A stretch of 64,000 nucleotides of DNA from Gemmatimonadota bacterium (lineage in GTDB: Bacteria; Gemmatimonadota; Gemmatimonadetes; Gemmatimonadales; GWC2-71-9). The stretch is taken from assembly GCA_025357945.1 (NCBI GenBank), contig JANYLJ010000008.1, forward strand, positions 1 through 64,000, read 5' to 3'. A program made the translations under genes and the position numbers. Shown here piece by piece: positions 13,800 through 15,118 of the stretch. The notes beneath the pieces were generated by a model. That model had not been told where the DNA came from and searched no databases. It worked only from the letters and a program-made list of their open reading frames with translations. The first letter of the stretch is position 1, and each line of letters starts with the position of its first letter.

Positions 13800-13912
13800 G
13801 GGGCGGCTCCACCGCTGAGGGTGCAGGATCGTGGCGTGCTGAATCGCGGAATATAGGGCGAGTCGTCGCTCGTCGACCGTGCTTCAGCAACCGCGCCGTC
13901 AGTCTTGCCATC

Positions 13913-13932
13913 TGATAGCTTATTAGCTATCA
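13913..13932. promoter_or_regulatory. Perfect palindrome, probable operator of the XRE gene
   Basis: TGATAGCTTATTAGCTATCA is an 8-bp perfect inverted repeat around TATT, ending 8 bases before the ATG of the XRE regulator. It is AT-rich in an otherwise GC-rich region. Position and symmetry fit an autoregulatory operator overlapping the promoter or leader; binding is inferred. Confidence 0.65.
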
Positions 13933-13940
13933 TCAATTCC

Positions 13941-14264
13941 ATGGCAACTCACCCGCCAGGCGACCTCATCCACACGGCCCGCGTCCGCGCCGGGTTGACG
14001 CAGCGCGAGCTCGCCCGCCGGTCCCGCACGGCCCAATCGGTGGTGGCGCGGATCGAGCGGGGCCAGGCGTCGCCGACGTGGTCAACGTTCAACCGCCTCC
14101 TCCACGCTGCTGGCTTCGACCTGCACGCCGAACTCGAACCCCATCCCGTCAGGGGATCGCACATGCTCGGCGACGTCTCGCGCATTCTCGCGCTCAGTCC
14201 GGAGGCGCGTCTCCTCGAGCTGCGCAATATCTCGCGCTTCCTCACCGATGCCCGCCGTGTCTAG
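13941..14264 (+). CDS. XRE-family helix-turn-helix regulator (putative antitoxin-like partner)
   Basis: 107 aa from ATG 13941 (MATHPPGDLIHTARVRAG). The HTH is at about 10-62: RVRAGLTQRELARRSRTAQSVVARIERG followed by SPTWSTFNRLLHAAGF, a textbook Cro/CI-type domain. The short C-terminus is helical, with no second known domain. The perfect palindrome just upstream suggests autoregulation. Its end overlaps the start of the nucleotidyltransferase gene by 17 bases, so the two are translationally coupled, the arrangement usual for toxin-antitoxin operons in which an XRE protein represses the operon. A plain regulator is the alternative. Confidence 0.88.
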   Translation: MATHPPGDLIHTARVRAGLTQRELARRSRTAQSVVARIERGQASPTWSTFNRLLHAAGFDLHAELEPHPVRGSHMLGDVSRILALSPEARLLELRNISRFLTDARRV

Positions 14265-14766
14265 CGTCGCCCCTCTCGATCCCGAGCGGCTGATCACCAC
14301 GCTGGCCCGCCACCAGGTCCGCTACATCCTGGTCGGCGCCGTGGCCGCTCGGCTTCAGGGTTTCCCGTGCCTCGCCGCCGACACCGACATCACGCCGGCG
14401 CGCGAGCCGGAGAACCTGCATCGACTCGCCAGCGCCCTGCGCGAGCTCGCCGCTCGCGTCTTCACGGAATCGGTCCCCGAAGGACTGCCATTCGACTGCG
14501 CCGCGGCCACCCTCGAGCGCGGTCAACTCTGGCACCTCGTCACCACCGCCGGCCGACTCGACCTGATCTTCGAACCACGTGGCACCACCGGCTACGACGA
14601 CCTGGCCAAACACGCCGTCCAGTTCGAAGTGTTCGGCGTCCGCCTCGACGTCGCATCGCTTGAGGATATTATCCGCACGAAAGTCGCCGCTGGGCGAGCG
14701 CAGGATCGCCAAGATGTCATTGTGCTGCGCGAGATCATCCGGCTGAGGGGCCATGGGCAACAATGA
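14248..14766 (+). CDS. Nucleotidyltransferase-fold protein (AbiEii/DUF6036-like), putative toxin-like partner
   Basis: 172 aa. The N-terminal nucleotidyltransferase signature is visible: YILVGAVAARLQGFP then ADTDITP, corresponding to the hVGG...DxD pattern of minimal NTases (Gly30-Ala31, Asp45, Asp47). The usual GG or GS is GA here. RLDLIFEPRG probably supplies the third acidic residue, and the C-terminal SLEDIIRTKVAAGRAQDRQD is typical of this family. AbiEii-type toxins transfer nucleotides to tRNA or other targets; that role is possible but not shown here. It follows the XRE gene in one coupled unit. The ATG at 14248 is the only good start. The standalone position in a chromosome-like context leaves open a housekeeping role. 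Confidence 0.8.
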   Translation: MPAVSSVAPLDPERLITTLARHQVRYILVGAVAARLQGFPCLAADTDITPAREPENLHRLASALRELAARVFTESVPEGLPFDCAAATLERGQLWHLVTTAGRLDLIFEPRGTTGYDDLAKHAVQFEVFGVRLDVASLEDIIRTKVAAGRAQDRQDVIVLREIIRLRGHGQQ

Positions 14767-15118
14767 TGACGGGGCGCCGGGTTTGATGCAGCTGATCCAG
14801 AAACGCGGACGCGTTCGCCCGAAACTCGGTGACCGGGCGAACGTCCTGAGACGGGCGAAGACCAGACATCGAACGGCTCCTTACCACGTACGCCATTAAG
14901 GACTGTTCATTACGGCGTGAGCCATGAGCCGTGAGCCGCGGGGGCGGAAGTTCGGCCCGGAATTCGACACGTTGTGACGAGCCTACCGGTTGGGGGCGTA
15001 TAGCTCATCGCTGCCTTAATGGCACATTCCCCCGGTACGCCCGTTGCTTCATACTCTCCCGACTGCCTTGACCAGGCCAAATCGGCCATATCCAGGGCGC
15101 ACCAGGAGACTCAGGCAC
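14767..15118. other. 352-bp non-coding stretch upstream of dnaK
   Basis: No convincing gene on either strand. It holds one copy of the dispersed repeat GCCRTGAGCCRTGAGCC (14921-14937) and should contain the dnaK promoter. No CIRCE operator (TTAGCACTC-n9-GAGTGCTAA) is visible, so HrcA control of dnaK is not supported here. A purine-rich AGGAGA sits about 9 bases before the dnaK ATG. Confidence 0.6.

Follow-up and report, generated by a model that had tools for sequence, protein, structure and literature searches.

The window analysed here, a stretch of 64,000 nucleotides, harbours two small overlapping genes that very probably constitute a type II toxin-antitoxin (TA) module, the first encoding an XRE-type repressor that would serve as the antitoxin and the second a MenT-like nucleotidyltransferase (NTase) that would serve as the toxin. 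Toxicity is ascribed to the NTase by analogy, and the chances are roughly even that its activity, as judged from its relationship to MenT1, consists of the addition of nucleotides to tRNA ends. The layout of a self-repressed TA module, which the original prediction had put forward, is supported at the level of sequence by the conservation of the pair and of its operator, by decay of the toxin gene, by exchange of the antitoxin head and by the presence of a TA hotspot in a congener.

Organization of the gene pair and its operator

The XRE gene was located directly 5' of the NTase-like open reading frame on the same strand, as had been predicted, and its product matched the HTH_31 (E 1.7e-12) and HTH_3 (E 3.6e-9) profiles above cut-off (Table 1). 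The 17-base overlap previously assigned to the two genes depends on the selection of ATG 14248 as the NTase start, which would yield a protein of 172 aa; this codon is unlikely to represent the ancestral start since only the window and L012 (the same locus again as L048) have an ATG that would give the 17-nt overlap. In close relatives the NTase begins at a GTG within CGTGTCTGA, or a near variant, inside the stop region of the XRE gene, and GTG 14257 is the window counterpart of this conserved start, so that the overlap is reduced to 8 nt, an arrangement presumed to permit translational coupling. Between the NTase gene and dnaK a 10-bp perfect inverted repeat (CGTTCGCCCG / CGGGCGAACG, 12-nt loop) was observed at positions 14812-14843, at which no T-run terminator was found.

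Table 1. Positions of the XRE-NTase genes and of the associated promoter and operator elements in the window
Feature	Position	Strand	Remarks
-35 element TTGCCA	13905..13910	+	TTG kept at same offset in aligned loci
Operator TGATAGCT-TATT-AGCTATCA	13913..13932	.	Predicted XRE dimer site, overlaps core promoter
-10 element TATCAT	13928..13933	+	Final T outside palindrome, T in 28/28
XRE antitoxin/repressor gene (putative)	13941..14264	+	107 aa
Gene overlap GTGTCTAG	14257..14264	+	8 nt; GTG at 8-nt overlap in most close relatives
MenT/TM1012-like NTase gene	14257..14766	+	169 aa from conserved GTG

An AT-rich inverted repeat does precede the first ATG by 8 nt, as originally noted, but its description as a perfect 20-bp palindrome applies to the 8-bp arms alone, as the 4-nt centre TATT breaks the symmetry (18 of 20 positions symmetric); a perfect palindrome with an AATT centre is present in some relatives. 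By itself the palindrome is modest evidence, since arms of 8 bp with a gap of up to 8 occur in 22 of the 799 80-mers of the window; 20-mers that are equally AT-rich number only 54 out of 63981 in the window. The decisive evidence for an operator, from a sequence perspective, is the conservation of the palindrome across loci. Alignment of 28 upstream regions, anchored on the palindrome, established that GATAGC-N6-GCTATC is kept, with an invariant GATAGC arm and a near-invariant GCTATC arm, and that information content approaches 2 bits per base in GATAGC...GCTATC and at the -10 T, with values of around zero in most flanking columns. The XRE start codon is situated a few nt 3' of the palindrome in nearly all of these loci.

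The same alignment revealed an invariant T just 3' of the palindrome, which completes TATC(A/G)T, and, at a 17-nt spacing, an upstream TTG in the -35 position (T 24/28, T 21/28 and G 16/28), and as neither belongs to the symmetry of the palindrome, both mark a promoter. In the window the corresponding sigma-70-like promoter TTGCCA-17-TATCAT, at 13905-13933, agrees with the consensus at 10 of 12 positions with a spacer of 17, and was the better of two promoters found, where shuffles give 0.2. The predicted operator covers the core promoter, including most of the -10 box. Just 7 nt separate the end of the -10 box from the XRE ATG, which, given the usual distance between a -10 box and the transcript start, leaves too little room for a ribosome-binding site in a leader, and from this spacing the XRE-NTase mRNA is probably leaderless.

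The operator is the only copy, at two or fewer mismatches, in the 3.0-Mb home genome, and a wider XRE regulon operating through this motif was ruled out on that account. In a sample of 295 genomes of the class the operator pattern was detected in 20 genomes as compared to 2 matches for a reversed control, and in 18 of these 20 an XRE gene adjoins the operator. All 14 genomes of this sample with a close NTase carry the operator (14/14). Of the other six, one (L118) has an XRE gene and a truncated NTase, one (L122) has a more distant pair, two (L128 and L129) have an XRE-MNT fusion and HepT, and two (G259 and G028) are without an XRE gene and look like background, in agreement with the two control matches. 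The loci L128:1500-2560 and L129:1500-2560, where the XRE domain is fused to an MNT (Polbeta) domain and followed by HepT, with an operator core of GATAGC-N6-GCTATCAT, apparently represent an XRE-controlled HEPN/MNT system. Direct reading of the operator by the XRE protein is supported by two cases of covariation, as the recognition helix departs from QSV in two pairs (L060 with QPA and L061 with QAA), which are the ones with altered half-sites (n=2).

Fold and catalytic residues of the nucleotidyltransferase

Profile searches with the NTase, which had been proposed in the original prediction, returned for the window protein a weak match to DUF6036 (17.8 bits against a Pfam cut-off of 23.6), no match to PF08843 (AbiEii) at E 1, no meaningful NCBIfam or PADLOC match and no PHROG match; a profile of the NTase family itself finds MenT1 over nearly its full length (E 6e-4). 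When the NTase was modelled with AlphaFold (pLDDT 94) and the model compared to the PDB by Foldseek, the closest structures were TM1012 (E 1.6e-6) and MenT1 (E 5.7e-6), the structural match to the latter being moderate (TM about 0.6), and the antibiotic-modifying enzymes LnuA and ANT(2'')-Ia came directly next among the structural neighbours. In MenT1 the residues D41, K137 and D152 are each essential for toxicity (PMC10435456), and their counterparts, as placed by profile alignment rather than by a solved structure, are D42, K142 and D150 in the window, and the latter two do not vary among the 30 sequences aligned.

The MenT1 T39 position is occupied by Ala40 in the window and by Thr in 24 of 25 close relatives; the T39A derivative of MenT1 is still toxic (PMC10435456). 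The same study reports that MenT1 lacks toxicity in E. coli. By the fold of its model and by the three catalytic residues the window NTase is placed in the MenT clan, and it is termed MenT-like rather than filed as MenT (DUF1814) because the Ser/Thr phosphoacceptor of that family (MenT1 T39, MenT3 S78) is absent from this copy. The replacement of the usual GG/GS by GA was correctly recognized in the earlier work, but the doubt thereby cast on activity does not hold, as GA is present in 25/25 close relatives, and is thus, on this alignment, a family trait and no sign of decay, and the MenT1-equivalent Asp, Lys and Asp are present.

It is conceivable, if unlikely, that the window copy is no longer toxic and represents a decayed or domesticated module which was kept as an autoregulator, as a catalytic Asp is absent in 6 of 25 relatives and as conserved positions of the window NTase carry substitutions private to it (R38C, T40A, A43T and N93H). 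Against this reading, neither gene of the window pair has an interrupted frame, none of D42, D44, D102, K142 and D150 has been replaced, and promoter and operator are preserved.

Conservation, decay and mobility of the pair

Searching the 295 class genomes at E 1e-10 identified NTase relatives in 59 of them, with a patchy distribution, and a scan of species genomes identified 31 loci, labelled Gemmatimonadota, Deltaproteobacteria, Balneolaceae and Actinomycetota; as most relatives come from metagenome bins, artefacts could underlie some of the host assignments or single-residue losses. An XRE gene is directly upstream of the NTase gene in 28 of these 31 loci, the same holds for nearly all of the class-scan loci that were inspected, and the neighbourhood is accordingly conserved as a pair, the lack of which had been named as an argument against the module. 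The surrounding DNA is otherwise unrelated upstream of the pair, with changing neighbours, and conserved synteny was rejected as a reason for conservation of the pair, as dnaK and the S9 peptidase gene do not adjoin other pair loci. Two small overlapping genes kept as a pair across unrelated contexts, the first specifying a protein with a DNA-binding domain and, on sequence evidence, an operator at its own promoter, are what is expected of a type II TA module.

At L022:1162-1998 a single open reading frame comprises an XRE domain fused to an NTase of the window type. XRE and NTase distances correlate in a mirror-tree analysis (r 0.76, 0/2000 permutations), a result that fits co-inheritance of the two genes but by which binding and shared ancestry are not separable; the correlation for the tail of the XRE protein was no better than that for its HTH domain once L061 was left out. 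The genome from which the window derives also has, on contig C15 (L002:1014-1980), a second overlapping pair of an XRE-like gene and an NTase gene, the NTase being 28% identical.

Two copies of the NTase gene were identified on plasmids, of Mycolicibacterium rufum and Miltoncostaea oceani, each with an HTH gene upstream and annotated as hypothetical protein. A phage or virus origin was considered and set aside, as no relative was found among viral contigs or phage records. In the congener G020 the same S9-peptidase/dnaK interval (L098:1336-3242), with flanking proteins that are 91% and 97% identical, has no XRE-NTase pair, and contains instead VapB-PIN (VapBC) and Phd/YefM-PIN modules together with the C-terminal remnant of a window-type NTase, so that the interval adjoining dnaK is, by its gene content, a TA hotspot in this congener. 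As far as genome comparison goes, the mobility of the pair is shown by its patchy spread, its changing neighbours, the plasmid copies and the TA modules at the same site in the congener.

The XRE protein comprises an HTH domain (residues about 6-62; pLDDT 96-98 in the AlphaFold model), a flexible linker (pLDDT 61 for the linker block) and a two-helix C-terminal tail (residues 77-106). NTases that are more distant, at about 40% identity, are partnered by an XRE protein with the tail D.TLLRENL..S..ER, and in L024 and L030 a Phd/YefM domain precedes the same tail, VDRTLLRENLRR..ER; at L062:2363-3471 the upstream partner has a similar C-terminal tail and no recognisable head domain. These tails align around L...PEER, although weakly for the subfamily of the window. 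Type II antitoxins usually combine a constant tail with heads that vary, and for this reason the persistence of a similar tail with the NTase across different heads suggests that the tail binds the toxin. The idea of a MenA1-like tail was rejected, as a profile of the tails found no credible similarity to MenA1 or to any other solved chain.

Six of the 25 close relatives (L050, L053, L054, L055, L056 and L057) each lack one of D42, D44 and D102, which is replaced by Val, Gly or Ala; 6 radical changes were thus observed in these columns as compared to 0.9 expected (P about 0.001 by column sampling with columns at least 85% conserved, and 0.007 with 80%), among which metagenome errors are possible case by case. 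At L118 the operator and the XRE gene are kept and the NTase is truncated to about 15 residues, and no broken XRE gene was seen at any locus examined. Comparison of the aligned genes shows that the toxin gene decays or loses active-site residues as the antitoxin gene stays intact, an asymmetry that is partly biased since most loci were found through the NTase; the operator search is free of that bias.

This pattern bears on the reading in which the NTase is a regulated small-molecule nucleotidyltransferase, acting for example by antibiotic adenylylation, under an autoregulated XRE repressor, and is not a toxin. Such an enzyme is suggested by LnuA and ANT(2'')-Ia among the structural neighbours, by a weak match of a distant member to the Pfam profile Aminoglyc_resit, and by the many non-TA genes that XRE repressors govern. 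We consider it improbable, as TM1012 and MenT1, rather than resistance enzymes, head the structural and profile matches, the repeated loss of a catalytic Asp with XRE and operator kept fits a harmful activity and not a resistance gene, the antitoxin head has been swapped for Phd/YefM, and the site is a TA hotspot in the congener.

Less probable still, indeed very doubtful, is that the NTase is an antitoxin-like partner, as MntA is in HEPN/MNT systems, which modifies a protein encoded elsewhere, with the XRE protein acting as a regulator only. At L128 and L129 a related XRE domain is fused to MNT and followed by HepT behind the same kind of operator, so that the head works with an MNT antitoxin there; for the window pair, however, no HEPN gene was recognised nearby among the open reading frames of the window, its NTase is similar to MenT1 and TM1012, unlike the L128 MNT domain, which is of the Polbeta/NTP_transf_2 type, and the part that decays is the NTase and not the XRE gene.

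Proposed mechanism and comparison with known systems

In the type II TA module that we propose, the XRE protein would act as both antitoxin and repressor, an XRE dimer binding the 20-bp operator, which lies downstream of the -35 box and ahead of the start codon, thereby blocking RNA polymerase. The 5' end of the transcript would coincide with the XRE start codon or lie beside it, as the spacing implies, so that the transcript would be leaderless, and coupling across the 8-nt overlap would allow the NTase to be translated from it. The two-helix C-terminal tail of the XRE protein would hold the NTase inactive, as is suggested by the retention of a similar tail with the NTase when the DNA-binding head changes. 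A fall in the XRE level would free the NTase, which, like the related MenT1, may then extend RNA 3' ends by added nucleotides, the acceptor ends of tRNA being the likeliest substrate, and so stop translation.

The module is of a recognisable kind, and its family is without a name in current libraries, the Pfam match being below cut-off and NCBIfam and PADLOC giving no meaningful match to the NTase. We lean towards the wider view of an unnamed TA family of the MenT clan built of exchangeable parts, in which the NTase and a toxin-binding two-helix tail are constant, the heads (XRE or Phd/YefM) are interchangeable, the operator, the -10 box and a leaderless start codon are fused, and the XRE head and operator core also serve XRE-MNT/HepT. 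Such XRE-NTase modules are probably being missed, because no library searched names the family and the plasmid copies carry no more than a hypothetical annotation. The cited MenT toxins, of Mycobacterium tuberculosis origin, are kept in check by antitoxins that belong to unrelated types; in the present family a MenT-like toxin is paired with an XRE repressor whose operator is clearly defined, which makes autoregulation and neutralisation directly testable, and it offers natural head swaps together with natural variants that lack one catalytic Asp.

The pair is neither AbiE nor HEPN/MNT, as had been predicted. With AbiE (AbiEi/AbiEii, PF08843) it shares an NTase toxin gene downstream of a gene for a DNA-binding repressor/antitoxin, but the partner in the window is of the HTH_3/HTH_31 type, with no winged-helix/COG5340 AbiEi, and the NTase itself does not match PF08843, a profile that is matched by 6 of 30 relatives at E 0.01 (best 7.9e-5), with the bridging relative L062 passing its cut-off (23.1 vs 22.5 bits). 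HEPN/MNT systems likewise have a minimal NTase, and the two relatives with the same operator core are an XRE-MNT fusion with HepT, but the window NTase is of another family and no HEPN (HepT) partner was recognised next to the pair. DUF6036 (PF19502) is matched by 25 of 30 relatives at E 0.01 although the window NTase falls below the Pfam cut-off; Pfam gives no function for this domain, and no mention of it was found in the literature searched. The minimal NTase fold is the same as that of TM1012 of Thermotoga (2EWR, 2FCL and 4HX0).

The MenAT1 system (rv0078B-rv0078A; PDB 8AN4/8AN5; PMC10435456) also comprises a small NTase of the same fold with matching catalytic Asp, Lys and Asp and an upstream antitoxin gene, and is patchy in distribution and probably horizontally acquired. 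MenA1, however, is a protein of 68 aa without a DNA-binding domain, whereas in the window the partner is a repressor of the XRE type that has an operator of its own and a tail without detectable similarity to any solved chain. The nearest reported system, likened to the window pair by layout alone, is Xress-MNTss of Streptococcus suis, in which an XRE antitoxin and an NTase toxin are likewise encoded in one operon (PMC8406773). MNTss was modelled on kanamycin nucleotidyltransferase and is toxic only when sent to the periplasm, and both Xress and the Xress-MNTss complex bind and repress their own promoter (PMC8406773).
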